From Nereocystis luetkeana (Eukaryota > Sar > Phaeophyceae > Laminariales > Laminariaceae): a stretch of 64,000 nt of DNA. Positions 4,045-62,700 of this stretch are shown in pieces. The translations under genes and the position numbers were made by a program. The notes beneath the pieces were generated by a model, which made no database searches, was not told where the DNA came from, and saw nothing but the letters and a program-made list of their open reading frames with translations. Position 1 is the first letter of the stretch. Each line of letters begins with the position of its first letter. The stretch lies in contig JARUPZ010000005.1 in assembly GCA_031213475.1 (NCBI GenBank), forward strand, positions 2,325,732 to 2,389,731, in the 5' to 3' direction.

Positions 4045-6460
4045 TGTTGCTGCTGCTGCTGCTGCTGCTTTTGTTGCTGCTGCTGCTGCTGCTGCTTTTG
4101 TTGCTGCTGCTACTGTTGTTTTTTATCTCCCCTGTTGGTGATTTTTATGTTACTATAGGAGTGCTGGTGCTGGTGCTGCCGTATGTCACTATAGGAGTGC
4201 ACCCTATTTTTTCCTTCTGGGTCTCTTCCCTGAAGATCTCCACTAATAATATTACGGTGGGCCATAGTTAATAGGACCTATGGTATACATAAAAATCTAC
4301 CAGGTACGATATGTTTAACCGTTTTTACTAACATTATTTGGTCCTATTAACTATGGTCCCCCGTAATAGTAAGTCGTTACTAAGTCACCCCCCCCGAACG
4401 CCGACTTTGAGAAAAAAAAAATCGAAACAAAAAATGCGACCCCTATAACCCTGCTGTAGATATTCAACGAATATCATAACATGCTACACCCTACCTGATG
4501 TTAGAGATGATACTGTTCCAACAGTATTGGTTTGAGTAACCCTTTGAGGACCACACCCCCATTGTGGGGACGAACCACTTGGAATTAGAGTGTAATATAT
4601 GCACATGTGCACAGCACTACTATTACGGGGGACCATAGTAAATAGGACCAGATATTGTTAGTAAGAATATGTAAATATTTAGGTGTTTGTGTGTACCGTA
4701 GGTCCTATTTACTATGCCCCCCCCGTAATAAAAGGGTTGTATTAGCCGCTCTTGGGGACGTCAGAGGGGAAGGTTTGACGGGAAAAAAGTGGCAGTTTCA
4801 GTAACGACAGCTAACTGCCAGATTGGGGAGTCATACTATTACGGTGGACCATAGTAAGTAGGATCAATTATTGTCACTAAAAATAGTTGAATGTATACCT
4901 GGTAGGTTTTTGTGTGTAACGTAGGTCCTATTTACTGTGGTCCCCCGTAATGGTCGGTGCCCCGAGCCACAATGGTTGCAATGCGAGGAGTCGTGCGGCA
5001 CGGGCACGTGATGGTGCTACCCGAGGTATCAATACTGCTGGGTGCTCACGCTGCTGCTCGTAGACGGTTCAATGGTTGATAGCACCAAAAGTCACCCAAC
5101 CATTGTCTTGGTCGCGACGTCTATCGCGGGGTGAATGCCTACTTGAGGGGTTAAGGAAACCCTGGCGGTCTGCAAGGGTTTGGCCCTAACAACACTGCTA
5201 TAGGGCACCCCCTATCGTTTATACCACGCGTCTGCCATGACACTTTGTATGCCTTAGCCCGCTGCTGTACCGGTCTGCGGTAGCTCATGCTGTCCATGTT
5301 GTCCGCCGTCGACCAGAGAGAGCTCCTTAAATCATGCCTGCGTCGTCCCGGCTTTCCGGACCCCCCCCCCCCCCCCCCCCCCCCCGATTTTGTATAGGTT
5401 GGGTTGGCGTCGGTTGGCAACGACACTGTGAAACATGCCGCTCACTACGTGAGCTATTAATAGACAACCAGGGTACCGTTTTTTTTGTTTTTTTTTGGCG
5501 GTCGCCCACAGCTGGTTGTCGAGTTAGATCATTTGTGCGAGGCAAAGAACCTTTACTCCGCACAAGTGGGAATTATCGTATCACGTAGTGTTCAAGGTAG
5601 GGCACTAAAGAGGCAGTTACATAGTACTCCCATTGCTGCCTCTGGAATTGCCTACACCGGAAATAAAATTAACTTGTTGAAGCTGTCATCCGAATGCAAG
5701 TCCGCCTCACAAGCGGTTCTTAGCAGGATGCAGCTGCGACTCGCCGGACACCTCACGACGCTTCGCGCTTGGTGCAAGCAAGGTCTACCTGGTCGGTGAA
5801 ATCCCGGAATGCTCCGTCCCGGCATTCTAGGGATGCGAGGGTCTATGGTCATACGACTACGACCGTGCATGAGATCGAGTGCATCTCTCCTATCGAGTAC
5901 ACCCCCCGCCCCCGCCCTACATAACTGTTCCGACGCTGCCATCTGTGTGTGCAAGGAAATCCGCCTCACGAGCGGTTCTTAGTGGAGGATGCAGCTCACC
6001 CTTCGTGCGACTTTTGCCGAACACCCTTGCAGCGACATCGCGGCCGCTTCGCGCTTGGTGCAAGCGAGCGATGCCTGCCCGGTCGGTGAAAACCCGACGT
6101 ACATCGTACACCGTCCCGGCATTGTAGGGATGCGAGGGTCTATGGCCATACGACTACGGCCATGCATAACATGAGTACGCCCCCCCCCCCCCCCCCCCCT
6201 CCGCGCGTGTCCGGGCCCGGCGCGTCACACCTCGCCCACCTTCCTCTACCGCCGAACAGTTTTCGCGGGACAAAACGTGGATCGGGAGCGTGTCACACGA
6301 CGACAAGATTAGATTCTGGCATGCCGAGTATCTGTTCGAAGAAGACGATGACGAAGACGAGGAGGAGGAGGAGAAGGAAGAGGAAGAAGAGAAGACGGCC
6401 GGTGCTGCCAGTGGCGTTAACGCCGGCGGGGGAGGTGAGCAAGTGGTTGGTGCTACATAG
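2051..6460 (+). CDS. WDR55: WD-repeat protein 55 (WDR55-like), 3' part, five exons
   Basis: WDR55 is a nucleolar WD40 protein needed for ribosomal RNA processing in other eukaryotes. Exons that join with matching phases are 2051-2157, 2955-3045, 3457-3535, 3808-3883 and 6260-6460 (stop TAG), giving 183 residues. Recognisable family segments in order are DATLAVFDLR, QEDELLSIQILK, VVCGTQNGVL, WGTWGDRSSRF, HPHSVDTLLKLDEDTVLTGS, VVSIQPDKFLG, GDHEDFPVESIK and SVSHDDKIRFWHAEYLFEED, followed by a Glu/Asp-rich tail. All donors are GT and acceptors AG. The first exon starts in phase 2, so the start codon and the first WD repeats lie upstream; I did not find them in 1-2050. A strong GGTGAGC donor at about 6433 could alternatively splice to a further exon. 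Introns carry poly(G), a TTGCC microsatellite and retroelement modules. Confidence 0.9.
2167..2265. repeat. Near-pure poly(G) tract in WDR55 intron
   Basis: About 100 bases of almost uninterrupted G lie 10 bp after a 5' splice site. Runs this long are prone to slippage and assembly error, so the length should be treated as uncertain. A purine-rich GGGAGAGA stretch follows to about 2440. Confidence 0.8.
2436..2505 (-). mobile_element. Reverse-oriented fragment of module A tail
   Basis: Read on the minus strand this gives TATGGCCATAC, then GCATGCATGAGATCGGGTAC, then CTCCTATCGAGTAC followed by a C run. This is the 3' end of module A. It lies antisense in the first visible WDR55 intron. Confidence 0.65.
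2640..2930. repeat. C-rich minisatellite, about 81-bp unit, four copies
   Basis: Units share CTCCCATG, then TCGGCCAC, then GGCCTGCC-type segments separated by C-rich stretches. Equivalent points fall near 2678, 2759, 2840 and 2901. It sits just upstream of the acceptor at 2954 and may add to its pyrimidine tract. Confidence 0.6.
3092..3375. repeat. (CCTTG)n microsatellite in WDR55 intron
   Basis: About 55 tandem 5-bp units with TTGTC, TCGTC and TTGCCG variants fill most of the 411-bp intron between the exons ending at 3045 and starting at 3457. The apparent Leu/Pro/Cys reading frames are a by-product of the repeat. Confidence 0.9.
3545..3660. repeat. Degenerate TATGG/TATGC 5-bp repeat
   Basis: A low-complexity tract of GTATG, CTATG and GGTATG steps occupies the short intron between the exons ending at 3535 and starting at 3808. 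Confidence 0.7.
3996..4112. repeat. (CTG)n microsatellite with TTTTGTTG interruptions
   Basis: Three blocks of CTG repeats separated by CTTTTGTTG lie in the last WDR55 intron, 110 bp after the 5' splice site at 3884. Confidence 0.85.
4252..4366. mobile_element. MITE-1 copy with a TACCAGGTA insertion
   Basis: Ends are TTACGGTGGGCCATAG and CTATGGTCCCCCGTAA. The core carries TACCAGGTA at 4298-4306, absent from most sister copies. Confidence 0.85.
4537..4592. mobile_element. Left half of a MITE-2 element
   Basis: The stretch AACCCTTTGAGGACC, then ATTGTGGGGACGAACCACTT, then GGAATTAGA matches the left arm of the GGGGACAAACC/GTCCCC palindromic family. The right arm is not present. Confidence 0.5.
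4623..4728. mobile_element. MITE-1 copy
   Basis: Ends are TTACGGGGGACCATAGTAAA and TTTACTATGCCCCCCCCGTA, flanked by TA on both sides. The core is the usual AT-rich sequence. Confidence 0.85.
4839..4950. mobile_element. MITE-1 copy with a TACCTGGTA insertion
   Basis: Ends are TTACGGTGGACCATAG and CTGTGGTCCCCCGTAA. TACCTGGTA at 4896-4904 interrupts the usual TATAGGTTTTTGTG of sister copies exactly at a TA. Confidence 0.85.
5020..5150. repeat. Dispersed repeat with a CAATGGTTG/CAACCATTG inverted pair
   Basis: The stretch GCTCGTAGACGGTT, then CAATGGTTGATAGCACC, then CAACCATTGT, then TTGGTCGC recurs at 28500-28610 in the same order. Shorter versions of the inverted pair lie at 7871-7903 and 16808-16853. 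It is probably a non-autonomous element; I did not find its ends. Confidence 0.5.
5490..5912 (+). mobile_element. Module A retroelement, near full length
   Basis: About 420 bp, from GGCGGTCGCCCACAGCTGG to GAGTAC plus poly(C). It aligns along its length with the copy at 56022-56460. Landmarks are GCGGTTCTTAG, GATGCAGCT, GGACACCTCACG, GCTTCGCGCTTGGTGCAAGC, CTCCGTCCCGGCATT and ATACGACTAC. I see no convincing Pol III boxes and no long reading frame, so it is either a SINE or the 3' region of a longer element. Confidence 0.65.
5945..6205 (+). mobile_element. Module A retroelement, 5'-truncated, ending just upstream of a WDR55 acceptor
   Basis: It contains the GCGGTTCTTAG to GAGTACG landmarks of module A and ends in a poly(C) run at about 6180-6203. 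The run lies in sense orientation 55 bp before the acceptor of the last WDR55 exon and may act as part of its pyrimidine tract. Confidence 0.65.
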
Positions 6461-6629: not shown

Positions 6630-9600
6630 CCCCCCCTCCCCCCCCCCCCTCCGTACCCTTCCACTCTACGTCGGCGGCGTCACCTTTTTGTTATATTTGT
6701 GTGACCCTCTTTTATTTCTCTTATTTTTCCGATTTTGTTGACGTTTTGTTTTATTTAGCCCCCCCTTTCGGATCGTCTGTTTCTGTCCTCTTTTGTGTCG
6801 GTTGTGTGACGTCCTTGACTCACCTACTGGGCATGGGACTGCTGCTCGTTTTTTGTTCGTTGTTAGCTCTTTGTCTCTACCCTCTTCTCGTCTTCTTGCC
6901 TTCCGTCCGGTCTTCTGGCGACGTCCTTTTGTTGGTCCATCAGCTGGACATCTCACAGCAAGAACTGATCGTAGCAGCAAACAACAACCTTGTCCTCGGG
7001 ACTCTCGGTCTACGCCCTGAGCGCATGTTTGTTTCGTTTTTCTTCGTTTCATGTTCTCCTTTATTTTTTTCTTTATGCTCCCTCTTCGTCGTTTTTCTTG
7101 CTTCTGTTTTTTGTCCTTCTGCTTCATTCTTTCTTTCTTTTTTTCGAATGGACAGAAACAGTAGTAGCAGGGATATATATGCTCCTGGTGTTATCTGGTT
7201 GCAAGTGATGCGGGATGGTATACCACGGTTTGTTGTTGATATTAATATTAGTAATGCCGTCTCCCTTACGGACTGGTGTGATGCTGCCGTGCGCACTATT
7301 ACGTGCTGGTTTGCTTGCTCCCATGGACATGCGTTTTTGTTACGGCCTGTTTTGTGACGACAGGCATCACAGGCATGGTTTTAGGGAAGTCAGCTAATGT
7401 GAGAACATCATCATCATCATAATCATCATCAGCACGGTGCAACAGTCAGTGCTCACATTGCGATGTATATTTTTTTGTTTTTGTTTTGTTTTTGTTTTGT
7501 TTTCTGTTTTTTCCACCCCATCTTCGTATTGTCGTTGCCCCGCAGTACGTACTGCTCCCTCTCTCTCCCTTTCGTGTCTCAGATCAACCATTGGCTCACT
7601 TAGCAAGCGACCCTCTTCCCCCCTCCCCACTACGGTATTAATAGTCGTGATTTATTTAATCACGTATGCTACCACAACAGAAGTGATTCGGGTGTCGCGT
7701 CACGATGGTGGGATATTCTTGGATGTGCGTGTCGTTTTTTGTTTTGTTTTCTCGATTTTTTTTTTTCATAGGGTGGGGTGTGCCTGCGTCAGACGCTATA
7801 AGGCCGACATCCATCCCTGCAAGCCCCTTCGGGGAAACGCCTTCGAGGCCCCTTTGATAGCGACCGAAACAATGGTTGGGAAATTTGGTGATATCAACCA
7901 TTGATTAGTCTACTGTTACGGGGGGGGCTTTTAAATAGGACCTACGGTACAAACTAAAAACTATATATTTCGCTATTTTTACTATTACGGGGGACCATAT
8001 TAAATAGGCTCTGCGGTACACACAAACACCTATACATTTCGCTATTTTTACTAACAATATTTGGTCCTATTTACTATGGTCCCCCGTAATATTGGTGTAA
8101 CAATATTTGGTTATATTTACTACTAATACTTGTATGGCCCCCCGTAATAGCAGCATGAGCGCCCATCAAGCTCAGATAAATATCCGTTTTGAACATCCTA
8201 CACACGTACCAGCATGTGTCTGAAGTGTTTCCGTTTTAGCGACGAGAGAGATAGAAACCAGAGAGAGCTAAAATTCTTGAGGGATGAACAAAAAGAAGTC
8301 GAACGTGTTTTCATGCCTCGGGTATTAAGACTAGGCCGCACGCCTTCCTCCTTCGCGTGAAAATTTGAACCTGGTGCGAAATTTGGCTTTTCCTAACCCC
8401 TCTGGTGCTGCGCGCCCCCTTTCCGGAAATAAGACAAAACAAATTCATGGTAGATCGATCGAACCAGGCGGAGGCTGAATACCTTTAGCTGATACCAACG
8501 CTGAGCAAAAAACGCCTGTTACAAAGATTTTGTGCAGATATCGCTGAACCTACCTAAGAGTTTTTTTTCCAGGGGGGGGGGGGATTCATCGTTTTGTTTG
8601 GAGAGGTGTTGGGCTCAATATGTGTCTGTGATGATGCGTCCTACGATATAATAGAGACAGGCCGGTCTGGCCAAAGCATTTCGGACTGGCGAGCTACTGC
8701 TGCTGTACCCAATATCGGTAGTATGTCAGTTGTCTCTTGCGATACAATTCGGCGTGTACCTCGGCCATGGGGTTGCTCGACGGCTCGCGCTTTCGGGCTT
8801 CTTTTGCGTTGAGGTTTTTGGCTGCTCCGCTACTAAACGTAGTTGAAGGGTTACACGTGCTGTCGTGTGCGCTGCTGGGCTGTGCGGCTAGTTTTTTGTG
8901 CGAGTCGGAGGCGTTATTCGGGAATGGGTTTTTTGCCTCGCGATGGTGGGGCTCTTGCGTCCCAGATTGCCTCCCAGTGGAGAAGAACCACAAGGTCAAC
9001 CCATAGGAGGTTATACTAATGGACGCAACGTCAAGAAACGGAAGGTTGGTTACTGCTTGGCCGACATGGTTTGGCTCGCGTGCGTGGTGCTCGGTGGGGT
9101 GTAGTGGCATCTGTGATTACTCTGTAATCGTGGAGGCAGGAGCCGGCCCGCGTGTGCGAAGATTTGGAGATGTGGAGATGTCAAGATGTGATTCGGAGAT
9201 GGCCCCGTGAGCTGTGATTCATCATGTCATGGGTTGGGTCTCCAGACGGCATTGCTTCCCGAATAACACCATAGCGTAGCACGCCATACGTAGCGTACCA
9301 TGCTACATACACCATACAATGCCGAACCATTCTGTACCATATACCTGGTACCATACCATAAAGATACCATACCATAAAGATACCATACCACACATGCTAT
9401 CAGATACCACACCATGGGTCCGGATACTCTTCACTATATCGTCCTGCCACTTCCCAGCACTACTGTACTGCTACTGTATATACACCATCCCGATATTCTA
9501 ACGTCTCTGATATTTTGTTCCCTGCTTCACGAGTCTAACGATTCAAAATAATACTTTTTCTGATATCTGAGAGTCTAGCGGCCACACGTCGACGACATGC

Positions 9601-11587: not shown

Positions 11588-12115
11588 ATGAACCTCCCAA
11601 CCTCTTCCTCCCCCCCCCCCCCCCCTCCTATGGTCATACGACTACGGGCATGCATGAGATCGAGTGCATCTCTCCTATCGAGTACACCCCCCCCCCCCCC
11701 CTATGGTGATACGACGACGGCCATGCATGATAACGAGTCCCCCCCCCCCCCCCTTGCCCCATGGGCACCGCAATATTTAAGGCGTCTGGATTAGGAGGTA
11801 TTAGGAGTAGGAACGGCGCTCCGTCTCGAAAGGGATGCGTGGTCAATGGTCGAACGACTGAGGCAAGCAACAAATGACTATGCCCCCCCCCCCTAGCTCA
11901 CCCTTCATGCGACCCGCCAGACACCTCACGGCGCTTCGCGCTTGGTGCAAGCAATGTCTGCCTGGTCGGTGAGAACCCGACATGCTCCGTCCCGGCATTG
12001 TAGGGATGCGAGGGTCTATGGTCATACGGCTACGGCCATGCATGAGATCGAGTACATCTCTCCTATCGAGTACACCCCCCTTGCCCTTCGCTCCCTCCGC
12101 CCCCCCCCCCCCCTC
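11588..12115 (+). mobile_element. Array of poly(C)-linked module A and B fragments
   Basis: Pieces in one orientation: A tail (about 11628-11700), A tail (11702-11752), B (11796-11892) and A (11895-12085). Each is followed by a poly(C) run into which the next piece appears to be set. This is the same arrangement as at 316-1330. Confidence 0.65.
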
Positions 12116-13068: not shown

Positions 13069-13697
13069 TGGTAATGCCGGTCCCGCTATACTGCCAGTAG
13101 TGTTGGCTGTCGCATATCATACCGACCCTAAACAGGGGCCATTGCTGTATTATTGGTGTCGTGATCACCTTCCCCCCTCCCCTCCTGCCGCGCCCCCATC
13201 CCCTCCACCCCACCCCCACCTGAAGGGTTTCCACCGGCTTTAGCTTTTGTCCCAGAGCGTCCCCTCCCCCCGACCCCCCACCTGCCATGCCTCCACCGAC
13301 TTTTGCTTTTGGCCGGAGCTTGGCGATGAAAGATATATATTATACCTGGTATATATTGTTGTTGTGCTCTTGCATGGGGTAGCTTTCAATCGGAGGGGGG
13401 GGGGGGGGGTTGTTCCGGAGGCTACGTACTACTCATGTATCGTCGGTGCGTAGCCGGGAGGCTTTGTAGAGGGAGTGTGATGGTCTGTTTTTTGTGTGGA
13501 CCTGTTTTGCGGCGTGCTCCGCGTGGCAAACGAGCTAAGAATACCCTCATATAGCTACCTCTCGACACCGCACCGCAGCGGTTCGTTTGCTCTGCCCTCG
13601 CGGAGCCTGGGGGTGCTAGAATGACCTTGCACTGATTCCGAGTAAATAATCGTCAGAAGCGTCGGCGTAGGTCTATAAGGGGGTTAGTGGGTAACCT

Positions 13698-13836: not shown

Positions 13837-14243
13837 TTACGGGGGACCATAGTAAATAGGACCTACAGTACACACAAAAGCCTACGTATTTCCCTTTTTT
13901 TCCCGAACACTATTTTGGTCCTTTCTTTCTCGGGGCCGAAAGACCGAATGGGAGATCTCGATCCCCACGCTTATATTGTATGAATACTCGTACAGCTTTC
14001 ACGTGCGCGTTCATGTTATCCTCTCGGTCTCCATCCGGCTAGCTTTCCCATACGACTGTGGTTTGGCGTAGGGGGTAGACAGCAGGCCGGTAATATCTCC
14101 ACCGGCCAGCTCGTGAAGGACTTTTAACCTCCTAAACCATTGAAAAATCTAGTCTCCCAGATTGCGACAGTACACGTCGCACCCTACCCATCAGGCTATG
14201 GTCCGCGGCCCTATTTGGTCCTATTTACTATAAGTACCCCGTA
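13837..14243. mobile_element. MITE-1 copy split by a 270-bp insertion
   Basis: The left part (13837 to about 13930) runs from TTACGGGGGACC to a TTTTGGTCC motif. The right end (about 14207-14243, TTTGGTCCTATTTACTAT to CCCCGTA) appears after about 270 bp of unrelated sequence. Repetition of TTTGGTCCT at both borders suggests a target duplication or template switch. Confidence 0.6.
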
Positions 14244-14299: not shown

Positions 14300-14705
14300 T
14301 AATGGTTCCCCGCCGCATGATCTAGACACGTACATACATATTTCTGGCCTGATGTCCGGAACAACACCAGTGTTGTTCCGGATCTGTATTATCTACCAGG
14401 TAGAGCAGTATTAATAGCTCAGTGTTGCCGCGTGGGGGTCTGCATTTTTTCTGCATGATCTAGCACATGTTTCCTGGGTTGGATCTGCCCTATAAGGCAG
14501 AGATCCTGCACGACATATCATACCGGTGGGTTAATAGTATCTTGATGATATATCTGTAGATGATCTAGATTATGTATCTGTAGATGATCTATGTGTAGAT
14601 CATCTAGATGATCTATGTGTAGATGGTCTATCTGTGGATTATATATCCGTAGATGATCTATCTGTAGATGACATCTCTGTAGATCATCTATCTGTCAGAC
14701 GTGGG
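14300..14705. repeat. Dispersed element ending in CTGTAGATGATCT repeats
   Basis: The left part shares GATCTGTAT, CATGTTTCCTG and GATCCTGCAC, then ACATATCATA, with the element at 45440-45800. The right part (14545-14700) is a tandem series of GTAGATGATCTA steps with GATCTAGATC-like palindromes. It contains a TACCAGGTA at 14394. Confidence 0.55.
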
Positions 14706-15330: not shown

Positions 15331-16860
15331 GGGCAGCCGTACTGGTACAACTGTCGTCGAATGCAGAAACGAAATGATGGATCGGGTGGCTAGGTATCGG
15401 TTCGACTAGCCCTTGAATTCTAGCGGTTTTCCGTTTATTTTTTGCCGAGTTGTTTAATGCGGGGGGGGCGTGACAGCGGCAGTACCGACACTTCACACCG
15501 ATTTTGGCGAGGGCAGGAAGGAGACGGCAAAGGGTGTTCCTAGGTTCCCGAATCGAGATTCTTGCAGAGACGGGCACACATGTTGCCATCAACGCGTGGA
15601 GTACGATTTTTTCCTCTTCCCCCCCCCGTTCTCTCTTCTTGCTTTTTGCCTCGCCTCCCCCTCTGTTTCCTTTCGTTCCCCCTCCCCGCCATCCCCATGC
15701 CGGTATCTTGTTGTGTTGCCTCTCCTTTTATGCTGCTTCGTCTGTGCAGCAGCTATCGGTCCTTCTTGAGCACGTACGATTTTCCTTGTATTCATGTTAA
15801 CAGCAGCCTTTATGATCCCCTCACGTCATTTTCTATTATGTTTCATTTCAGAATCTATTGTGGTCTTAAGCGGTTTTTCCAAAATTTCCAAAGTTTGGAA
15901 ATAATTGGAGATATGTATCGATATACGGAGGCGTTCCGTCACTATTCGTGAAATTCTCCAGAAGAAGCAAAAATATCAAGTTCGTTAACATTCCAATATT
16001 TGAAAAAAACTACCCAGGAGAAATATGGAAGATTGAAAAATTGCGCGAAAAAAATGTCGAAAATTTGGACAAAAAGCTCTCCGATAAGAATGACCCTTAT
16101 TCTTCTCGCTGTTTTGACTGTCTGGCCTTGCTTGTGTTGTTGTGTTCTCGTTCCCCGGTACGCTGACCGTTCACTTGCTTGACCCCTGAACTTGCATTTC
16201 TTTTTTTTTTTCGTTTTTGCTCTTCCTCTTGTCTCGCGGTCTGTGACCACAGAATTTTGCATTTATTTCTCTAGGATAAGGAATCAGGACGGGCACCGAT
16301 GAAGCTGGGTAGGAAGGACGATTTGATGTGAAGACAATACAGACACAGAGTAATTGTATACCTGGTACCAGGTATGTAACAGACAGCGCTGTTTTTAATC
16401 CGACAATAATAGTGGCAGTGCCAAATCCCCCTGAACCAACACGCCCACTCATAAGTAGCAGGAAACCCCTTGGTAACGCTGCGGCTCTGCGCGGGGCGCG
16501 CCACTCCCTCGCGGGGCCTTGTGTGCTGTTTGCGGGGCGTGATTTCCTCCCCACGCGGGGCTTCGCAATAACAGTAAGGGTAAGGATACGGCATTTCCCC
16601 ACTGCTCATGTTCTGTAAACGCGGTGAAGAGTGTCGGGCAGCAAAGGTGCCAGGTGCCAGCAGGAGAGGAGACCGTGGTTTTGGCCCGTGGAGGCGTACC
16701 TTCGTAGACCATATAACTACTACTACTACTATCTATTAATACTACTAATACTCCCAGTTATGTGAATGGAAAAAAAACACATTTGGGACCCCGAGATAGC
16801 GGTCAAAACAATGGTTGATAGTTTCGGTGTTATATATACATATCAACCATTGTACGGGTA
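15331..16860. other. No supported gene
   Basis: Mixed sequence with T-rich stretches, a GC-rich patch at 16480-16560 and paired TACCTGGTA/TACCAGGTA sites sharing one TA at 16359-16374. Open frames such as 15562-15951 lack recognisable domains. An inverted CAATGGTTGATA/TATCAACCATTG pair lies at 16808-16853. Confidence 0.4.
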
Positions 16861-18200: not shown

Positions 18201-18331
18201 ATAATAATAATAATAATAATAATAATACTATTACGGGGGGCCATAGTTAATAGGACCAAATATTGTTCGTAAAAATGGTTAAATATATAGGTTTTTATGT
18301 ACACCATAGGTCCTGTTAACTTTGGTCCCCC

Positions 18332-18416
<85 letters not shown>

Positions 18417-18591: not shown

Positions 18592-18640
18592 GTAATAATA
18601 ATAATAATAATAAAAAATACCAGGTATATTTTTTTCAGTT
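18201..18640. repeat. (AAT)n microsatellite, three blocks
   Basis: Long AAT/ATA runs at 18201-18229, 18333-18447 and 18497-18612. They are interrupted by a MITE-1 insertion and by a short unique piece (TTGAAGAGCATGCTGC and following bases) that partly recurs after the last block. Confidence 0.9.
18231..18335. mobile_element. MITE-1 copy inserted in an (AAT)n tract
   Basis: Ends TTACGGGGGGCCATAGTTAA and CCCCCGTAA sit directly between AATAATACTA and TAATAATAA, consistent with insertion at one of the many TA dinucleotides of the tract. Confidence 0.85.
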
Positions 18641-19780: not shown

Positions 19781-20095
19781 TCATTGTTGCTGATCGCTTC
19801 GAGTATCGTAGACCGCCGTTTTTTATTTACTACCAGGTATTATAGATCAAAACTGCCAAACAATCTGCTTTTGACCTCTGCTTTCGTTATCGAAGAAATT
19901 CGTCGTCCGACAATAATCCCATTTTTACACGCTATTTCGTATTGTGTTTTGTCATATTATCTGTTTACGACCTATACTCACTGATGTTCCCACATTAGAC
20001 CATTCGCGCGGAAACACCAATACCAGGATATCGAAGGGGCAGCTATACGTCGCTGCTTATTTTCTTGACGTTCCTCACTCGATTGTAGAATAATA

Positions 20096-20200
20096 TTACG
20101 GGGGACCACAGTTAATAGGACCTAGGGTATTCACAAAAACCAATATGTTTAACCACTTTTAGTAACAATATTTGGTCCTATTAACTATGGTCCCCCGTAA
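20096..20200. mobile_element. MITE-1 copy, well preserved
   Basis: TTACGGGGGACCACAG to CTATGGTCCCCCGTAA with flanking TA on both sides. It is a useful empty-site reference for the copies carrying TACCWGGTA. Confidence 0.9.
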
Positions 20201-20259
20201 TAGAAGCTCTCTACTACCCTTACTCAAAAACGGACGAAAACTAAATCATGGCCTAGGGG

Positions 20260-27730: not shown

Positions 27731-27737
27731 TGACTTA

Positions 27738-36393: not shown

Positions 36394-36440
<47 letters not shown>

Positions 36441-40810: not shown

Positions 40811-40814
40811 AATA

Positions 40815-41535: not shown

Positions 41536-41639
41536 TTAGACGGGAAACGGGATATCATGGATGTATCATGGCACAAGCACACCTAGAAGGGCTGTACATG
41601 CAGATGCATAGATATCAGGAGGGTACAAAATCCACGCCG

Positions 41640-50100: not shown

Positions 50101-51529
50101 CAGACGAGTACCTGGTAGGTACCAGTTTTGCCCAGTACTGGTACTCTTTCAAAAATACCCGCGGGAACGACGTTCAGGAGTTACCAGGTACCTGGTACTT
50201 ATTACCAGGTACATTACTGCTGTACTGCTTGTCCCTGCTGTACTACACAGCGTGCTATACTCGTAGTAGACTCGTCGCCGTATGTTTGTGGCTGTACTGC
50301 TGCGGCATGCTACGATGATACACGCGAGCTCTGGTGGACCACGATCATGCCAACATGCTCAAGCTGGCATACCTACCATGATGCGGTCGATGCAATACGT
50401 AGGCCTCCGAAGATGGCTTTCTATGTACTTGTATATAGCGCGTTCGTCATCAGTGATCAGCGTCCGTCGACCCATCCTCATGAACCATGAGGCACTGCCA
50501 ATCGACGAAAACGAACACCGCCATGAACGGAAATATAATCACCATTTGGTCTTTAATATGAAGATACATCGGTGATTATATTATCATCTAGTGGTGAATT
50601 TATCGGGAGGGAATGGAAAAATTACGTGACTTTTGGCAATTATTCGTCCCTACGTATTGGGTCGACATTGTACCGCCCTGTGCCAGAGTGGCAGCCAACA
50701 TGGAGGAAAGGTGTTGACATATGCAATGGGGTGTCGACCATGTCATTGTTGGAGAGACAGGCATCCAGGCTAGCAGGACAATAGGGCACCTCTCGGCAAC
50801 ATGAGCACGCGTGTCAGTATCATGCGCGGAGTAAAAAAACGAAAAAAACAAACAAAAAATGCAAGGCATCTTCTTCCCTCCCGGAGGAAGCAGGTTTTTG
50901 GCAGCAAGCAAAAGAGACGAGGATAAAAGCGACTGCTGTCCATGCACATCCCGGTGAGACATATGCGCGGCACCGAAACATATATGGCCCGACCTGCTTC
51001 TTGCGAAGCGTGCTCGGCCGAAGAGGCAATCTGTTTGGTCGGGGCAGCCTGCTTTGTGGGTGCCTCTGTCACCCTCTGGCCGCAAGCGGAAATGAGTGTT
51101 CATGGATGATTCGGTCGGAAACCTCTTCCGTGAACAGCAGTACCACCACCAACTAAAATTAGTTAAGAATCGCGCGAAAATACACACACACACACACATG
51201 CTACCTGGTGTACCTCGTAGTAGGGTTCGTACGAGCACGAGTACGTACCATATCAGGCGAGTCTGTGTTTTTCTGCCTGTCCCCAAACAGCATCATCCCC
51301 AAGGTATGGTCAACACAAGCAAAAACCCAAAGAGAGGCAGAAGTCCGCTTGCCTCGGTGACGTACTCGTGAGACTCGGCGTACAAGGTCGACTTGCATCG
51401 CTTGGCGCCGATAGGGTTGACCCAGCCAGCTCGCGCAGCAGGTGCAGATCCAGCGATCGTGCGCATTGTCCGGAAAGCAGCGTTCGATGAACGCAGCGCC
51501 CCGCCGAACCTAGCCGCCACAGATGCCAT
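44133..51529 (-). CDS. GCSH: Glycine cleavage system H protein, mitochondrial, four exons
   Basis: The H protein carries a lipoyl arm that shuttles the aminomethyl group between the P, T and L proteins of the mitochondrial glycine decarboxylase complex. Exons in transcript order: 51529-51353, 46908-46805, 45401-45317, 44273-44133 (stop TAG); 168 residues. Start [19 protein letters not shown] gives an Arg/Ala/Ser-rich presequence of about 45 residues; mature sequence begins [13 protein letters not shown]. Family landmarks: [44 protein letters not shown] with lipoyl Lys104, and [13 protein letters not shown] near the end. Phases match at every junction. The first intron uses a GC donor (GAG|GCAAGC); the others are GTGAG. 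The usual DxAQ after GIT is replaced by AFAA. Introns are 4444, 1403 and 1043 bp and hold MITEs. The gene is divergent from the T-protein gene. Confidence 0.95.
45440..45800. repeat. Dispersed CTGTAGATGATCT element in GCSH intron 2
   Basis: It shares CTTCAGGGCAGATATAT, GATCCTGCACAACATATCAT and a run of TATCTGTAGATGATCTATC steps with 14300-14705 and, inverted, with 58898-59216. It ends near CTGTCCGACGTGTG. Confidence 0.55.
46085..46152. mobile_element. MITE-1 right-end fragment
   Basis: Only the core (CCTATATATTTCCCTATTTT) and right end (CTATGGTCCCTCGTGA) remain. The left inverted repeat is missing. It lies in GCSH intron 2. Confidence 0.6.
46505..46684. mobile_element. hAT-like MITE with perfect 8-bp target duplication, in GCSH intron 2
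   Basis: Terminal inverted repeats CAGGGCTTTTTCACGGG and CCCGTGAAGAGCCCTG enclose a 180-bp interior of ACCCGACCCG repeats. The flanks carry an exact duplication ATTAATAC (46497-46504 and 46685-46692), the 8-bp signature of hAT transposition. It lies about 120 bp from the exon 46805-46908 and contains no reading frame. Confidence 0.85.
46954..47172. mobile_element. Two abutting MITE-1 copies in GCSH intron 1
   Basis: Copy one, 46954-47064 (CTACGGGGGACC to GGTCCCCTGTA), has a TACCTGGTA at 47011-47019. Copy two, 47068-47172 (TTACGGGGGACCATAGTTAA to CCCCCCGTAA), lacks it. Only 3 bp separate them, as if one inserted at the TA bordering the other. Confidence 0.85.
47515..47550. repeat. (CAGA)n microsatellite
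   Basis: Eight CAGA units in GCSH intron 1. Confidence 0.85.
48219..48330. mobile_element. MITE-1 copy with TACCTGGTA insertion
   Basis: TTACGGGGGACCATAGTAAA to CTATGGTCCCCCGTAA. CCTATTAAC of sister copies is CCTACCTGGTATTAAC here (48302-48310), a clean gain of CCTGG plus a duplicated TA. Confidence 0.85.
49760..49863. mobile_element. MITE-1 copy flanked by a 26-bp host duplication
   Basis: TTACGGGGGGCCATAGTTAA to CTATGGCCCCCCG, with the final TAA lost. The host sequence TAGCTGTGGTACTTGTTTTA and the following TTAGTA occur both before (about 49720-49746) and after (49864-49889) the element, far longer than a normal TA duplication. Confidence 0.75.
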
Positions 51530-51969: not shown

Positions 51970-53739
51970 ATGATCCGAGCCACGACGAGTTCGCTGCGCC
52001 GGTGCGCCGCCTCGGCCAACAGCTCGGCTGTCAAGCAGGCCCAGCGAGCGACGTTCGCGTCCGGCCCTCTCGAAAAGACGGCCTATCACCAAATGCACAT
52101 CGACATGAAGGGGAAAATGGTGCCCTTCGCGGGCTACGAGCTGCCCGTGCTGTACGAGCACGAGGGGGGTGGTGTCATGAACGAGACTCTCCACTGTCGC
52201 GCCCCGGGCAAGGCCAGCGTTTTCGACGTCAGCCACATGGGGCAGATCAGGTGGACAGGCAAAGACGCTGCTGATTTCCTGGAAAAGTGTGTCGTAGGCG
52301 ACATCAAGGGGCTCAAGTCCGGGGAGGGTCGCCTGACTCTCATCACCAACGCTACCGGGGGCATCGTAGATGACACTGTGGTGAGCAAAGTAGGAGGGCT
52401 ACCAGAACCCCTGATCTGAACTGTTCTTGATGATTCAGCGGTGGTGGTGGTGGTGGTGGTGGTGGGGATGGTGTGGTTTGGCTCGAACGCAAAGCGGATA
52501 GGCTGCTGTATCAGGAACCATGGGGGCGGGTATTTTCATGCGAGGCATGCTTTCTGTGCGCGGGGAGATTTAAATGATTGAACACATGCAGGCCCATACC
52601 AAGTACCAGGTACATGAAAAATAACATGTTTTTGTGTTTCTCTATCGTCCATCATGCGAGCATCTCTCTCTGTCTCCGCCTGTCTTTCGTTGCCCATGCT
52701 CGTATTCACAGCCAATTACAGCTCAACTGTCAAGGAAACTCGCGACGGCAGAATAATGCAAGGGGCTTATGCTCGTACTGCACCGCCCTGCCTACCCTCT
52801 GTTGAATCAGCGACCGCCCCTTTGCTGGAGGCGGCAGAATGTTTGTAGTCTCTGACTTCTGACGCTTGATACATGGTACTTGATATTTTCGTGTTCTCCG
52901 TCTTCCTGCTTGTATTTGTGCTTACGTACTCGTCTCGTGCTCGTCCCCATTTTAACGTACGAGTATTTCTCTTGCCTGGACTGCTGTGACATGGTGTGTG
53001 ACGTGTTTATCGAACATGCCTCTACTGCTGTTATTAATAGTGCTATTTGTGTTCGCTGCGTTCGTCCCTATCACCACATCATCTCAACTTTGTGATAACC
53101 CTGTGTATACTCGTAGCAGCAGCACGTGGCAGCATGCCTCGCTTCGGGGCGTTCATGTCCGCCATCGATCGCGTGCACCCATAGTACAACACCAGGTGGC
53201 GGGCTGCCTATTACCTCGTATGTATATGACACGGCATCTAAAAATAGTCGTCAGCACTTGTACCAGATACATACCTTGGTATATACGATCGTACCTGGTG
53301 CATAAGACAACCAACAGCAGCAGCCACTCGCACGAGTAAGACCAGGTGGAGATGTACCAGTAGGCGTGTATGCGCGAATACGGAATACTTTTTCACAGCG
53401 CACCACGACGCTTTTTATCTGTCCGAGTCCATTGTCAAGATCAAAAGACAAAGAGCGTGCGTAAAATACACTTTTTTTTGTAGTCAGTGAGTGGTGCTAT
53501 CTGCGTCTGTTTTAGTTTTGTTTTTGTTTTTGTTTCGCTTAGCTTCATCTTCTTTTTTTAGGTTTTTGTCTGCTATTAATAGTCTCCTCTTTGCTTTCCT
53601 GGTGTCCGCAGTGGTGGAGTGCGTATGCTTGTTTTTTGTTTTTTTGCCTCTGTTTTTACTTGAGGTATTTCTTCCACTCCAGAGTTATTGGAGCCTGTCC
53701 TGCGACCACGGACTGCATTGAATTGTGAGTTAATGTGAG

Positions 53740-53774: not shown

Positions 53775-56700
53775 ACACCAACAATATACCAAAGCAGTAC
53801 GTACCAGGTACAAAACTTCATTTATTATCGCAGCGTGTCGAAAGTCGTCACACAATGAATGAAGGCAATCAGAGCAAAACGCTCCAAGTATTGGCGGTTT
53901 TGTTTGAACGTTTGAACACGCGGCGCCGGAATTTCGTACTCTAGCGTAGAACTACTACCTGTACTCATGTACCACTCAATTCGCAGTCACCCCTGGCCCC
54001 GTTGAACACACACACTATTTATAACTCCCCGCCCTGATGAGGGCTGTCTTCAGGTATTCACGCAACGTAACCTTCAAAAGCATATCATACGGGTGTCATC
54101 AGACTCTTGACTCGTCCCGAATCGTGTGTGCCGTCGCTCGGCACTGGGCAAGTATCCACTGCTGCTGTACTCGCAGGGTATATCTCTCGTGGCAGTGCAT
54201 GCCTCCTGGCTGAGGGAGGTGCCAGGATTCCACGATATCGATAAATTACGCTCGTCCCACTAAAACGCCTCATAATACAACGGAACCCCATCGAAACGGT
54301 ATTGTATACCAGATGCCAGGTATTACACAGCAGCTTTCCGTACATGCCATGTGTATCACCGCACATTTTGTTCGTTTTTTTTTTTCATTTCCCTGACTCA
54401 AGATATGTACCGGGATACCAGGGTACAAGTATACCACAACCCTCACCCGAACACTGCTGCCTTACGCCCCAAGATCAACGTATTTTTTAGCTCTTCTTCG
54501 TAGTGGGGCCAAGTCGCGGGAAAGCGGGACTCCGACAAGGCGCCCCCAGCGGGGTCCCCTTACCAGCCGGGAGGGGTGGAGGGGGGGGGGGGCGATGGTC
54601 ACGGCGAAAACGGTGGGTCTGGGATTACCTGGAATACTGGAAGCACTCCTATCTCGTTGAGGAAATACTCTTTATTCTGAAAATATGTACCTGGTACAAG
54701 GCGCTTCGCTCCGCGGGCGGCCTACGCCGCCCGCTACGCTCGCTCTGGAAGAAAAAGTACATCGAATTACGCGAAGCGGACAGAAGGTCGATGATGGAAC
54801 CTATATTTTTATGATTATTGTTGTAGTTGCAAATTGGCGACTTGATAATGCCAAGAGTCTACGTACGTACGTACGTACGTACATACCCCAGGTAGGGTAC
54901 TGATTTTCTTCTTTCGATATGCTGTATGATATGTACCTGGTATGTATGCACGTTCGAGAAAGCACAGCATGGCACAGCAGCAGCACCGCAAAAACAATGA
55001 AAATGAAACCGAAAATTTTGGAAGGAGAAAAAAATCCCCGTCCCCTCTCGTGTAATAATTGTCTGCCCCTGGAACACCTCGCACCAGTCAACAGTCTAAA
55101 AGAAGAAAAAAAAAAAATGAACAGCAGAGCTTCTCTCTCAGCCTCGTACGCCGCCCGCCCCTCTCTCGACCACCTCGCCACCGATTCGGTCCGGGTAAAG
55201 CTTTCCTCCCTCTCTGCCACAGTGATCCCCGTTGCCCGCCCCGCGTGACGCCCGGTGCTTTCCTTGATCCTCGTTCGCCAGCTCGTCGATGGTCAGACGG
55301 GCGTCCGTCTATGTGTATAGTTCAGCGTGGTCGCAATAATAAGCACCGCTTGAATGTTAGCTTGCAATCCCGAACGACCCTTATGGACTCGTACATACTC
55401 AGTCTAATTTTTTAGATGGAGGCAAAGAGAGCCCATTCATGCTTCTCTTGTGTCTCGAGGCGCACACGACGCCTGGCCACGAAAACCGCGACCGAACTCA
55501 TCGCAACCCCCCCTCTACCCGCCAGCATCCGCCGACACCCGCGACGGCGCCGGGCTCGCCAGCGTCGCAGTGCTCCGACTTCACGCACGCACACGAAACG
55601 GGAGAAGAAAAAAGGAAAAAAGAACTGAACGTGCGGAAGAAATTTCAACCAGCCGGTGAAAAAAAGCGAAAGAGAACCTCCCAAACCGCTGGAAAAACAA
55701 AATCGACTTTTTTCTTTTTTCGAGATTTTTTTTCTATTATTCCGGGGAAAAAAGTATGGCACGAGAAGCAAGCTCGCAAAGAAAGCAAAGATCGTAGAAG
55801 CGACAAAAAATCGTGGGAGACTCGCTGAGCGTGAGGCAGGTCCTTATAATCAAGTGATTTTAGGAAAAGGGTAACTTTAAGTATGTGTATGTCGACAAAA
55901 AAAACAGACTTGGGATTTCTTCCGAGGTGTGTGTGTGTGAGTTTTCTCTTGCGTGTTATGCGGCACGATTGCTGTTGAAGGATCAGTTGTACCCCCCCTC
56001 CTTCCCTCCCCCCCTATATATGGTTGTTCGGCGGTCGGTCACAGCTGGCGGTCGAATTAAATCATTTTGTGCGGGGTGAAGAACCCTCGCTCTACACACA
56101 GGGAATTATCGTATCATGTACCTGGTAGTGATTATGGTATGGCACCCACAAGGCAGTTACGGCATATTTTCATATTTAATAGTACTCTCATTGGGGTCTC
56201 TGGAAGTGGCTACGCCAGAAATCAGATTAGTTCGTTGAAGCCATCATCCGTATGAAAGTCTGCCTCACAGGCGGTTCTTAGTAGAGGATGCAGCTCACCC
56301 TTCATGCGACTCGCCGGACACCTCACGGCGCTTCGCGCTTGGTGCAAGCAATGTCTGCCTGGTCGTTGAAAACCCGACGTGCTCCGTCCCGGCATTGTAG
56401 GGATGCGAGGGTCTATGATCATACGACTACAGCCATGGATAATATCGAGTACCAGGTACACCTCCTGCACAGGTGTGCCCGTGTGGCAAAGAAATAGAGA
56501 TTATAACTCACATACAGCAGTAGTAGACGAGTGTGAAATGCACAAGGAGGAACGAGATGTGTTAGAAAAGGGGATGAGGTAAATAGCCGAATGTGACATG
56601 GAGGAGTTTGGTCCTCTAGATAGCAGCGAGAAGACGGTCACTATCCTAGGAGATCGATGGTGGCCACAGGCGGCTAAACTGGAAGGGGATAAGATTAACA

Positions 56701-59700
56701 AAAAGTTTATGTAATAGATGGAAACAACGTAATGAGGGCCCAAAGGTAGGAGGTGTCTCCACCAGGAGTAGGAACGGTGCTCCGTCTCGAAAGGAATGGG
56801 CGGTCAATGGTCAAATGACAAAGGCAAGCAACAAATGAGTACGCCGCCCCCCCCCTCCCCGCCACCGCCAAGCCCCGAACACGTTTCGTAACAGCACGCA
56901 AAAAAGGGTTTCCAGCATGCCAGAAAGCAAGTACATGCTGCGACATGATGACGATTGTCCCCCGCCCCCGCCCCGCCCGCTCGATGTTTTGTCCGTGGCT
57001 TGCTCTTATCGTTTGGGCCGGCGGGCAGGTGACCAACGCGGGCGACCACATCTACATGGTGGTCAACGGGGCCTGCAAGTACGGAGACATGGAGCACTTG
57101 AAGGAGCAGATGGCCGACTACAAGGGCGACGTGCACATGGACTACCTGGAGACACAGCAGCTCTTGGCTTTGCAGGGGAAGGGCGCGCCGGCCGCTCTGC
57201 AGGTCGGAACATACCCCCAACGAGGGTAACAGCAGCATGTATAATGACAGAAAAAACATGCCTCCCTCATAGATGTACGTACGTACCGATTTCCTCTCGC
57301 TGTTCGTGATAGGTTTTTGTTTTTTGTGGATATAATATGTGATCGTCCCGAATTCCTTCCTTTCGCTGGTCTCGGTGATTTTTCGTTTTTTGTGTATGTA
57401 TCTTGTGTGCACGTACGTGTGCACCGATTTGTTTCAGTGATTTTTCGTTTTTTGTGTATGTATGTTGTGTGCACGTGCGCACCGAATTGTTTTCGCTGGT
57501 CGTCGTGCTCTTCGTTTTTCGGGCTGATTGGGGCTGCAAAATATCAGCAGCCCGGCAGGTCTTTCGTTTTTTTGTCAGCTGCACAAAACGTCATTGGTCA
57601 TTGGGGTTTTTTACCTTGCGTCACTCTGCGTCCGAAGGACCCCGAACGACTCTGAAGGGGAATATTAACATTGTATCAAGTGTGAAGCTTAAGATCGGGC
57701 GTAGGAAATCCGGAGGTTGTGGAGCGGAACTGCATCTTAACAGGTATCGCATACGGACAGCTTGTTTGGTTAGGGGATAATTACCAGTAGGAGGGAGAGA
57801 GAGGTATTCAATCGGATGACACTAGAAATAAAGTCACCCCCCCTAGCACCCAATCAATAATTCCAGGCTCGTGAAGCGTAACAAAGTACCAGGTGGGATT
57901 TTATGCGCGGTTCGCATTCTTCCTGACAGAAACATAAAATTATTTTAATAGGATTGTTCCACAGCAGCACGTAGTAGACGTGTTGTACTGTTAATTCTAC
58001 AGTACAATAGGTGTTGTATGTGCGGGTTGTATTTTTCATGTCAAAATCGTATTTGCAATAGTGAAATTACAGTCGGAGCAGGTGTACATGGAGATGGAAG
58101 ATGCGTGGTGTTGTTCGTCCTCTAATGATGTAGTCTACGACGTTGCCCACGATGTCATCCCCCGGGAGCACATAAATGGCGTGTTGTTAGGGCTATGCTC
58201 GCCGTTAGAGCCGATGAAGTCGCGGAGAAGTCGCCGTGCAGAGGTCGCGAAGCGAGGGTCCCTTGTAGCCGTCCTTATTGGTCGACGTGAGCCGAGCGGA
58301 GTCGCTTCGTGTATTTAGCAAGGAATTGCCGGACCCAAGAGGATCAAGGTTCATAAGAGTGACACCGCAGGTGGTCACAAGGACTGGGCCTGATCGTGTC
58401 GATTCTGGAGGTACCCGGAGTCGAGGGGAGACGTCAACACGGTCCATGCTGCGCGTCTTTTGGGGCCGCAGTCAGTCCCGTTTTGGGGACAAACCACTCG
58501 GAATTTGACTGGTTTTGTCCCCAAAACGGCACTGACTGCGGCTCTAAAAGGGTTAATAACCCGAGATCTAGTCCGGTGGGATAGTTCATGCATGACTTCA
58601 AGTTGTGTCCTCCCTTGCATGCGTGTTCCGAGGCCTGCGATAGATCATTCTTCCCTGTCCGTGACCTTGTTGTTTATAGGGTTACTGCCGTACTTTCGGC
58701 TGTGTGTGTGTTTTTTGTTTCGCTCCCCGCCAAAAGGGGAAAACCGTGCGCTTGGCACTTCCAAGATGTCCGAGGATGTCTTTATTATGTTTGATAGCAG
58801 GGTTCGAAGTATGTATTTTTGGAGTACACGTGTACCAAACCTGGTTGTTATGGTCATACTCGGGTACGCAGCAGGGTATAATACCCAGTTTAAGTACTTC
58901 ACACCTCGGCCAGATAGATGATCTGCAGATAGGTGATCTACATATAGATGATCTACAGATAGATCATGATCTGCAGTAGGAGATCTAGTTCCTCACCTGC
59001 GGCTGTGAGACTTTCTGCAGGATCTGTTGAGTACACGTCCACCTAAGAAACTATGCTATATTATGCGGATTACTCGCGGGTCCCACCTCGCAACATGAGC
59101 TACTTACTGTACAGTAGATCATGCAGATCAGTGATCTATCTATCTATCTGCCCTGAAATATATAGATCGTCAAGTGACCTGTAGATTATCTGTAGATGAT
59201 GTTTCCGAGGTGTGAAAAAGTTCGGAGTACCCTACCAAGCTCACCGTTGCCACTCGTACCTACTGTATCACAACTCGTCTCAGGTGGCTCCAACCTCCTG
59301 CCTGTGGCGCGTTTGCTGCAACCACAGTTTGGGGACAACCTGCTAGGCATTGGTGTAGGAAAAAATCAGTACCAAAGCGGTTAACCTTCGTCCTGCTCGC
59401 CTGCCGAATACGCTCGAGAAACCCCGCAATTTCTGCTGCTCCTTCGCCACCCTTCAGTTTTTACCATCGTGCGCAACGCTCACCTTTACCATCGTGCGCA
59501 ACGCTCACCACCCCGTCCCGTCTGCCCGCGTCTGTCCTATTTTCCCGATCCGTCCGACCTGCCTCTTGCTCTCTGGTATAGTCTTTGATGCCCGCGGGTG
59601 TAGACGTGCTGAAGATTCCGTTCATGACGGGTTTCGACACTACCGTAGGCGGTATCGAGGGCTGCCGCATCACCCGATGCGGTTACACCGGCGAAGACGG

Positions 59701-62700
59701 ATACGAGGTGCGCATTTTTTTTGCGTTGTTAACATCAACTCCGTTCCGAAGCCGGAAGTTAAACCATCTCATTGAAGCTGTCATCCATATGCAAGTCCGC
59801 CTCAAAAGCGGTTCTTAGTAGGATGCAGCTCTCACCCTTCATGCGACTCGCCAGACACCTCACGGCGCTTCGCGCCCGGCGCAAGCAATGTCTGTCTGGT
59901 CGGTGAAAACCCGACATGCTCCGTCCCGGCATTGTAGGGATGCGAGGGTTTATGGTCATATGGTCATACGACTACGGCTATGCATGAGATCGAGTACATA
60001 TTTCCTATCGAGTACACCCCCCCCCCCCCCTCCCATTCCGATTTCGTGTGGGGTTATTCTGGTAGCATGTGCCACTTTGGGCGGAAATGTAAAAACCTAT
60101 TGGTCTCTATATTAATGTGTAAATGGTTCTTATATTTCCGTCCACCAGTACAAAATAATATAGTAAGGGCCACGTTTCTTGGGGACAAACTCCCAGCAAA
60201 CTGTGGGGAAATACTCAATTGTTAGAAATACTCTAGTTAATAGTATACCAGGTACATGCTGTAGCACGCGCAGGGTAGAGGAGTTAACGAATGATTGTGA
60301 CAGACTACTGTAGCGTTACTGTTGTACGTAGTGACGTCGGCATTGATACTACTGTTGTTTTGATTTGAGAGTGGTGGCGATATTTCAAGAAACTGCTGTA
60401 TGATTGTAACATATTTGTGTTGACACCCCCCCCTGCTCCGTCTCGAAAGGGATGCGTGGTCAACGGTCAAATGACTAAGGCAAGCAACAAAATGAGTACC
60501 CCCCCCCGCCCTCGCCGATTGTGCTCGGAGCGCAGATTAGCGTCCCGTGGGACTCGGCCGTGGCCCTGGGCGAGACTCTGTTGAACATCGACGGCGTCGC
60601 GGTGGCCGGCCTTGGTGCTCGCGATGCCTTGAGGCTGGAGGCGGGACTGTGCCTGTACGGGAACGACATCGATGGGACAACCAACCCGGTCGAGGGTGCC
60701 TTGTCGTGGTGAGATGTCCGTGGAATCTGCTGGTATTACAGTAGGCTGTTGGTATCGCAGTAGGCTACTGGTATTTTTAAGCAGTAGGCTGTATTCCGCT
60801 TTTGGTATTGTACTGCAGCTATACGTACTCGTATAGGCTGACCTAGTGTCCTGAAAATGTGCTGCATCGGACTGCCGTGTGGGACTGCGCCTGCACGGTA
60901 ACGACATCGGCGGGACTCTCCAAACCTATAACCGACCCCCTGTCACCGAAACGCCTGACAGGACCATGGGAGGGCCCAAGGGGCGCCGAAGACTGGAGCA
61001 GGGCTTCCTTGGCGCGGAGCACTTCCTTACGCCCGAGGGAAAGCTCCAGGTGGGTTAGAAACAGCTATAAACACGAAGAATATATGTGGTTGTATGGTGC
61101 GCACGGGATCCCGACGTTGCATGGGTGATGGTGCATGGTATTTTTGACAGTCGGCAAGTCGGTTGCCGGCTAAAGTTAGGTATTTGGCTGACGGCACCTT
61201 CCGATTAATTATCTGTCGTGAAATCTGGTCGACTCGTTGCTCCACCACTTGGGGTATTCACATAGGGCACAGCTGAGAGCTAGGGGGGGGAGGGGTACTT
61301 ACTATCATGCATGGCCGTACCAGGTAGTCATTATCATTTAGGGGGGGGGGCTGGGGCGGGCGGGGAGGGCAAAACGATATATTGTATGTAGTGTGTGTAT
61401 TGTTATTGCCCTCGATGAAATGCGTTCGAGCGCTGTTCTCAGTTCAGCTGTATTTTTTCTGTGAAGTCGCAGTTGGAGTTGGTGCGAGGGTGGAGAGAGA
61501 CCAGTCGGCACCGGTACAGACGGCACCTTGGCTCTCAGACTGAACGCCTGCTTTTCTTCGAACCTAGAACGAAAGGCTCGCGCTTCGCCTCATAGTAAAA
61601 CATGGTTACTAAATTACGGGACAGAGTGGTATGCCAGTACAGCAGTAGGATAGCACGGCGAGAGCAGGACGCCCCACCCCCCAACAGCCATCAACAGGTT
61701 GTGGTTTGCGTGGTCCATACGGTGGTGGTGTGTACGGGAAAGCACGCCTTCTGCCGATATCTGTATATCGCAGAATGTCCCCCCTCGCCTCTAAGAAAAG
61801 CCCACGCGGCTCAACAGTTTAAACGTGACGAGCACAGCAAGACGCTGAAAAATGTTTGTAGGGTATGTACTGTGTATGTACTGTGTGGTCAATGGTCAAA
61901 TGGCCTGAGGCGAGCAACAAATGAGTACGCCCCCCCCCCCCCACCTCACGACGCTTCGCGCTTGGTGCAAGCAATGTCTGCCTGGTCGGTGAAAACCCGA
62001 CATGCTCCGTCCCGGCATTGTAGGGATGCGAGGGTCTATGGGCATACGACTACGGCCATGCATGAGATCGAGTACATCTCTCCTATCAAGTACACCCCCC
62101 CCCCCCCCCCCCCCCCCTCCCCCCTACCCTCCGAGCAGAAGCAAACGAGGAAGCGTGTGGGGATCATGGGCATGAAGGCTCCCGCCCGAGACGGCACAGA
62201 AATATTCGACGCCGAGGGGAAGGCGAAAATCGGAACGGTAAGTCAGTCTCCACGTCCCCACCCCCCCCGCCACCGCTGCTGCTGCTTCCGTTGCTGTTGC
62301 TTCCTTATTGCAGTAGCTGCTGCTTCTGTTGCTGTTGCTTCCTTACTACGGTAGAGCTGTTGGCCGCGGCCTGTTTTTTGTGTCCCTTGTGAACTCCCGG
62401 TACAAGTATACTGGTAGCGTTGCAAGTGAAATAGGGGAAGTCGCGACGGGAGGCTGTTGTATTCCGCACAGCGCTGGTGCTCTCAGCCAGTATATATATA
62501 CTGCCAGTATGGGTGTACTGCCAGTATATGTATACTGAAGGTGTAAGTATACTGCCAGTGTAGGTGTACTGGCTGTTGTCCACACTCTTCTTCTCACGAC
62601 TTTTTTTTTCCTGTCAAAACGTTAGTTCATCATATATACTCGTAACACGATTCGCAAGACAACGTCAACGGTTGTTCGCTATTAGAGAGATGGACCCTTG

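Follow-up and report, generated by a model that had tools for sequence, protein, structure and literature searches.

The 64,000-nucleotide stretch of the brown alga Nereocystis luetkeana that we analyzed (contig JARUPZ010000005.1, positions 2,325,732 to 2,389,731; hereafter the window) contains 47 exact copies of the motif TACCWGGTA, or 0.73 per kb. Where the origin of a site could be read by comparison with a related copy (12 of the 47), the site arises by insertion and not by substitution. We consider that the motifs are probably excision footprints of a TA-specific, Tc1/mariner-like transposon whose ends would carry CCAGG or CCTGG and would be cut with a 5-nt stagger; the parent element, the stagger and the excision are parts of this account that we infer. 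All counts reported here come from this single 64-kb window of one genome.

Abundance of TACCWGGTA and gains at TA dinucleotides

An exact motif scan detected 28 copies of TACCAGGTA and 19 of TACCTGGTA, denoted + and - respectively in the coordinates below, where putative scars rest additionally on repeat alignment. The two are reverse complements, that is, one sequence on opposite strands, and the departure from a 1:1 ratio was not significant (P=0.24). The original prediction had reported about 49 exact copies: the over-representation stands, the number is corrected to 47, and all 25 coordinates that it had listed are among them. Expected counts under Markov models of orders 0 to 3 were 0.48, 0.51, 0.57 and 0.72, which agrees with the figure of about 0.5 by chance put forward earlier, and each of 60 simulated order-3 sequences held 0 to 3 copies. 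Expectations rose to 1.9 at order 4 and 13.6 at order 5 because these models largely absorb the words and counts of the motif itself. When 7- to 10-mers were scanned for over-representation with similar flanks collapsed, TACCWGGTA reached the highest observed/expected ratio among mixed-sequence 9-mers present in at least 8 copies (47 versus 0.72 expected). TACCSGGTA was absent from the window, the centre never being C or G, and this is informative because an A.A or T.T mismatch predicts W only. The central W, which had been ascribed to mismatch repair, needs no repair story in order to occur on both strands, since the strands are reverse complements.

The same data bear on whether the motif reflects chance, low complexity or a single spreading repeat family that carries it. 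Two repeat families do hold several motif copies, but chance and composition are ruled out as the origin by the presence of 47 copies where 0.5 to 0.7 were expected and by the 0 to 3 copies of the simulations, while spread with one repeat family is ruled out by the clearly different flanks of 32 of the 47 copies and by the filled repeat copies described below, which are scattered and form no single cluster. The likelihood that we attach to this explanation is close to nil.

Each of the 47 sites was compared by BLAST, with and without the 7 bp, to other copies in the window. Matches spanning the junction were obtained for 14 sites, two of which were left out because they matched simple sequence only: once emptied, 9342-9350 (-) matched a simple repeat and 18618-18626 (+) a microsatellite. 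Twelve comparable sites remained, at 8 positions, and in nine of them, at six positions, the gain was exactly 7 bp, converting TA into TACCWGGTA. Two of these positions lie within MITE-1, a family of miniature inverted-repeat transposable elements (MITEs) of about 115 bp with the terminal inverted repeat (TIR) TTACGGGGGACC. At MITE-1 site 1, both putative scars were exact relative to unfilled copies (27758-27766, -, in the copy at 27731-27870, and 48302-48310, -), and at site 2 three of four were exact by repeat alignment (4896-4904, -; 27791-27799, -, the second in the copy at 27731-27870; and 47011-47019, -). The other exact gains were found at 49745-49753 (+), which lies on the margin of a MITE-1 copy and when emptied matches 40796-40843; at 56119-56127 (-), in a repeat, by comparison with 5491-5757; and at 56450-56458 (+) and 61318-61326 (+), both in module A repeats. 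Three sites departed from this outcome. The fourth site 2 copy, 4298-4306 (+), showed a 10-bp gain by repeat alignment (the 7 bp plus CGA), and the alignments of 28553-28561 (-) and 47870-47878 (+) display a further 2-bp gap nearby. These last two lie in repeats and, when emptied, give better matches to 5030-5115 and 58335-58241, respectively, the position and length of the gain at 28553 being poorly resolved.

When a 7-bp deletion was slid from -40 to +40 around each of the 12 sites, the motif position was best or tied-best in nine. The five filled and empty pairs named in the original prediction are real by repeat alignment. Its further statement that CCWGG and a duplicated TA are gained in each pair is exact for nine of the 12 comparable sites and does not extend to 4298, 28553 and 47870; the constancy of the 7-bp gain among aligned copies, a test set beforehand, was thus largely borne out.

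Recurrent filling and target preference

MITE-1 is a TA-flanked palindromic family (TIR TTACGGGGGACCATAG), of which 14 copies in the window were used for a tree: 1633-1743, 4245-4382, 4611-4740, 4832-4951, 7980-8097, 13837-13922, 18224-18340, 20085-20220, 27731-27870, 40810-40927, 46944-47070, 47063-47174, 48214-48333 and 49755-49863. It was rejected as the parent element, its TIR being TTACGGGGG, and a search for this TIR in viral contigs returned 0 matches. Five of the 14 copies hold six motif copies, two of them being filled at site 1 (27758, 48302) and four at site 2 (4298, 4896, 27791, 47011); the other aligned copies show no gain at either place. A FastTree phylogeny of the 14 copies, which are short and diverged, was computed with the gains removed. 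On this weakly supported tree the copies filled at site 2 were scattered: 4245 groups with 47063, 18224 and 49755 and is parted from the other three filled copies by a branch with support 0.925, 27731 pairs with 48214 (0.40), 46944 pairs with 13837 (0.73), and 4832 stands alone. The separation of 4245 from the other filled copies at 0.925 implies that at least two of the site 2 gains, and probably three or four, occurred independently at this one TA.

Flanking sequences were analyzed for 36 sites, none of which lies inside MITE-1 (48335 and 49745 lie on its margins) or within 30 bp of another site, against a background of 1000 samples of random TAs. The flanks are symmetric around the TA, with a preference extending to 8 bp on each side: A/T reaches 86% at ±7 versus 55% in the background (z=5.1), T is enriched at ±3 (z=3.7) and ±6 (z=3.3), and A is avoided at ±1 (z=-3.3). 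From ±9 to ±15, nothing clear distinguished the 36 sites from random TAs. A matrix built from these 36 sites placed the six held-out MITE sites between the 90.2 and 99.9 percentiles of all TAs, the leave-one-out percentile of the training sites having a mean of 83 and a median of 89. Applied to seven of the 10 unfilled MITE-1 copies, the matrix gave its top rank to the site 2 TA in five (18224, 40810, 49755, 47063 and 7980); in the copies at 20085 and 1633 the site 2 TA is altered and another TA ranks first. Local preference around the target TA is typical of the Tc1/mariner superfamily. Since the matrix foretells landing sites, the pattern looks like integration at TA and not like a drifting binding site.

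Selection that keeps or multiplies a protein-binding site, YACCWGGTR, would nevertheless suit a palindromic motif whose core hardly decays and whose sites are more clustered than TA density explains (P=0.0001). Substitution would not yield a target preference over 8 bp on each side, and the readable sites arise by a usually exact 7-bp gain, repeatedly at the same TA. These gains within repeats rule out a binding site as the origin of the motif, so that selection could have acted at most later, and we see only a slight chance that this explanation is correct. The distribution of the sites also includes a motif-free interval, 30672-43183, in which 7.1 copies would be expected from the 550 TAs present and the chance of none is 0.0005, for a gap picked post hoc.

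Candidate mechanisms and the search for a parent element

In the mechanism that we favor, a transposase preferring such TAs would insert an element whose ends start with CCAGG or CCTGG, duplicating the TA. Excision would then cut the non-transferred strand 5 nt inside each end, producing two 3' overhangs that could pair with each other at four G-C positions, with a single A.A (or T.T) mismatch in the middle. Mismatch repair would give TACCWGGTA, and ligation would leave behind the 7-bp gain. As to the original prediction that the motifs are excision scars of a TA element, the gain of CCWGG plus TA, its recurrence and a predictive TA preference were all observed; no convincing element was found in the window, and no transposase among the ORFs covered by the Pfam search described below.

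The inner bases of 903 pairs of CCWGG ends matched at 12 of 18 positions at best. All 184 TA-flanked inverted-repeat pairs (16 bases, at most 3 mismatches) were examined, and nine of them have an end starting with CCWGG. Eight of the nine join two exact motifs and therefore match over 7 of 16 bases by construction; in the remaining pair just one of the two ends is an exact motif. The best pair delimits a 118-bp stretch, 24469-24586, with motifs 24469-24477 (+) and 24578-24586 (-) as its possible left and right ends, which agree at 8 of 10 bases beyond the motif and give a 17-bp inverted match by BLAST (E=0.067). We did not accept this stretch as a parent MITE, as it occurs just once in the window and the control was richer: a search for TACC ends returned 12 pairs in the reversed sequence versus 5 in the real one. 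These pairs are also what would be expected if some of the 47 motifs were the actual ends of short elements with an inverted repeat starting CCAGGTA. The matches imposed by construction, the target preference common to the flanks, the single copy of the 118-bp stretch and the reversed control all speak against such ends, which we regard as very unlikely. No transposase was present among the Pfam matches of 20 of the 425 open reading frames (ORFs) of at least 70 aa, and the search proposed earlier for a CCWGG-bounded element with a transposase thus yielded nothing convincing in the window.

Several observations weigh against excision footprints. The 64 kb hold no convincing parent or non-autonomous element with CCWGG ends to set beside the 47 motifs. 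In the deletion scan, the motif position was not the best at 27758 and 48302, for each of which the nearest relative is a filled copy, or at 47870 (3 bp off); at 28553 it only tied with many offsets. One-base variants of the motif number 29 versus 13.5 expected; those in the interior are near background, and 12 alter the outermost T (T to C) and have target-like flanks, a concentration that plain decay fails to account for. Footprints would be expected to include heterogeneous minor end-joining products, and the length variants found here are without target flanks: variable-length TACC-N2..5-GGTA is in excess (19 versus 5 expected) and was not counted as variant because its flanks show no target preference (P=0.14), and TACCAGTA/TACTGGTA (14 versus 1.8 expected) was rejected as a 4-nt variant on the same grounds (P=0.1). 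Literature comparisons add to these points. Stowaway elements left five different footprints at one locus, against one near-uniform product here (PMC1925063). The 5-nt core, common to all 47 copies by definition of the search, exceeds the 2 to 3 nt of mariner (PMC2642840), the 3 nt of Sleeping Beauty (PMC8151067) and the TIR fragments of 1 to 4 bp of Stowaway/Osmar5 (PMC1925063).

Equally, a T|A step that receives ACCWGGT becomes TACCWGGTA. The motifs might then come from an enzyme that inserts this 7-bp palindrome directly at pyrimidine|purine steps, for the most part T|A but at times C|A or T|G; a longer element would never have been involved, and the TA duplication would be a mere effect of alignment. 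Such insertion would fit the uniformity of the motifs and the absence of a clear parent from the window. The product classes (TA/TA 47, TA/CA 12, CA/TG 1) also fit insertion at Y|R: the 12 edge variants have target preference (mean 79th percentile, P=0.0003), and CA or TG duplicated on both sides, the outcome expected at CA targets under a target-site duplication model, was encountered just once (TGCCWGGTG 1, CACCWGGCA 0). No matching copy of these variants in the window allowed their empty state to be read, however; some may be due to chance (1.1 expected), and three of the 12 are part of longer TACC(C)ACCAGGTA strings. We know of no enzyme that inserts such a 7-bp palindrome directly. The edge-variant pattern and the unreadable empty states therefore leave some room for ACCWGGT insertion at Y|R, although we judge it unlikely overall. 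We likewise hold as distinctly unlikely a dedicated micro-insertion activity at preferred TA-rich sites for which the 7 bp would be the whole mobile sequence. Longer strings at 20691, 23948 and 45834 (TACCACCAGGTA and, twice, TACCCACCAGGTA) look like compound scars.

Another route to the same product would be a shorter stagger of 2 or 3 nt, as is normal for mariner (PMC2642840), with end joining supplying the central W by addition or fill-in (TACC + A + GGTA). This route predicts many copies of TACCGGTA, of which 2 were seen and 0.8 expected, as well as mixed centres, and the annealing of CCAGG overhangs accounts better for a product that always has W at its centre and does not vary in length. 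The probability of a shorter stagger is in our opinion low.

If the motifs are indeed excision footprints, each of them is the record of a landing and of a departure. The target preference of the transposase behind them can be read from their flanks, and they predict an element with CCAGG or CCTGG ends that is cut 5 nt inside them; they would also reveal the way in which broken DNA ends are joined again in this alga. Should the density of the window hold elsewhere, the scars would rank with the most frequent insertions of the genome. The 95% upper bound (Poisson) on the number of elements in the window is about 3, so that with 47 motifs there would be at least about 16 scars for each element. 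Such a ratio would mean that the element leaves far more often than it stays.

Position of the motifs relative to genes and repeats

The window carries a GcvT gene (glycine-cleavage T-protein) with exon stretches at 51970-52380, 57029-57202, 59594-59707 and 60536-60709 (limits set by eye). Over 292 aa joined by eye, the protein is 84% identical to that of Ectocarpus siliculosus and 62% to the next named hit, from Tribonema; another hit reaches 97%. A 277-aa RT-like ORF at 18843-19673 (-) resembles the end of a non-LTR reverse transcriptase; it gave no Pfam match, and the viral contigs held no relative. None of the motif copies lies inside these five coding-supported stretches, consistent with the earlier claim that no supported exon carries one. 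Seven copies are intronic in GcvT, six in intron 1, namely 52604-52612 (+), 53802-53810 (+), 54688-54696 (-), 54934-54942 (-) and the putative scars 56119 and 56450, and one in intron 3, 60246-60254 (+).

The other copies on the + strand are at 14394-14402, 19831-19839, 24007-24015, 24371-24379, 24751-24759, 24898-24906, 26413-26421, 26477-26485, 26713-26721, 27079-27087, 44963-44971, 48073-48081, 48335-48343 (just outside a MITE-1 copy), 49351-49359, 49687-49695 and 50203-50211, and those on the - strand at 13343-13351, 22112-22120, 29026-29034, 30663-30671, 43183-43191 and 50109-50117. Two further pairs are nested via a common TA, 16359-16367 (-) with 16366-16374 (+), and 50182-50190 (+) with 50189-50197 (-).

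Other repeats were noted in the window. Dispersed module A repeats (GGTCTATGGTCATACGACTACGG), many of which end in long C runs, occupy parts of 600-6200, 11600-12100 and 56300-62100. Another repeat, found at 28530-28570, 5030-5115 and 7856-7913, contains palindromic CAATGGTTG/CAACCATTG pieces, which are among the next most over-represented dispersed 9-mers. The minisatellite at 34129-34584, made of 42-bp units with GGTACCTGGGGGCTGAAA, is a source of half-motif matches unrelated to the putative scars.

Comparison with known excision footprints

Terminal nucleotides left between two TAs are the known excision footprint of Tc1/mariner elements (PMC8151067, PMC1925063, PMC2642840). Among the matches listed for queries on the motif, on brown algae, on excision footprints and on the stagger, no report of a TACCWGGTA scar was found. 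One close parallel is Sleeping Beauty, whose TA-CAG-TA footprint consists of terminal element nucleotides after end joining at the TA, albeit with a core of 3 nt (CAG) instead of the 5-nt CCWGG seen here (PMC8151067). That footprint moreover comes from a known element, whereas dozens of motifs per 64 kb occur here with no clear parent in the window. Mos1 resembles the predicted element in its 5' inverted terminal repeat (ITR), which starts with CCAGG and adjoins a TA (PMC3419177, PMC2642840); it differs in that its 5' cut falls within the element, two or three nt from the end (PMC2642840), in a 3' ITR that starts with TCAGG and in being an insect element. With Stowaway/Osmar5 the motifs would share, if they are scars, historical footprints deduced from empty sites, TIR fragments between TAs and repeated insertion at one TA (PMC1925063). 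Taken together, the 5-nt length and the uniformity of the product go beyond the known footprints of the superfamily. Within the brown algae, the words 'excision' and 'footprint' have 0 occurrences in the main text of the paper on the TcMar elements of Ectocarpus, a genome that offers a likeness of another kind, with almost 12,000 Mariner-Tc1 copies, most of them MITEs (PMC12477816).

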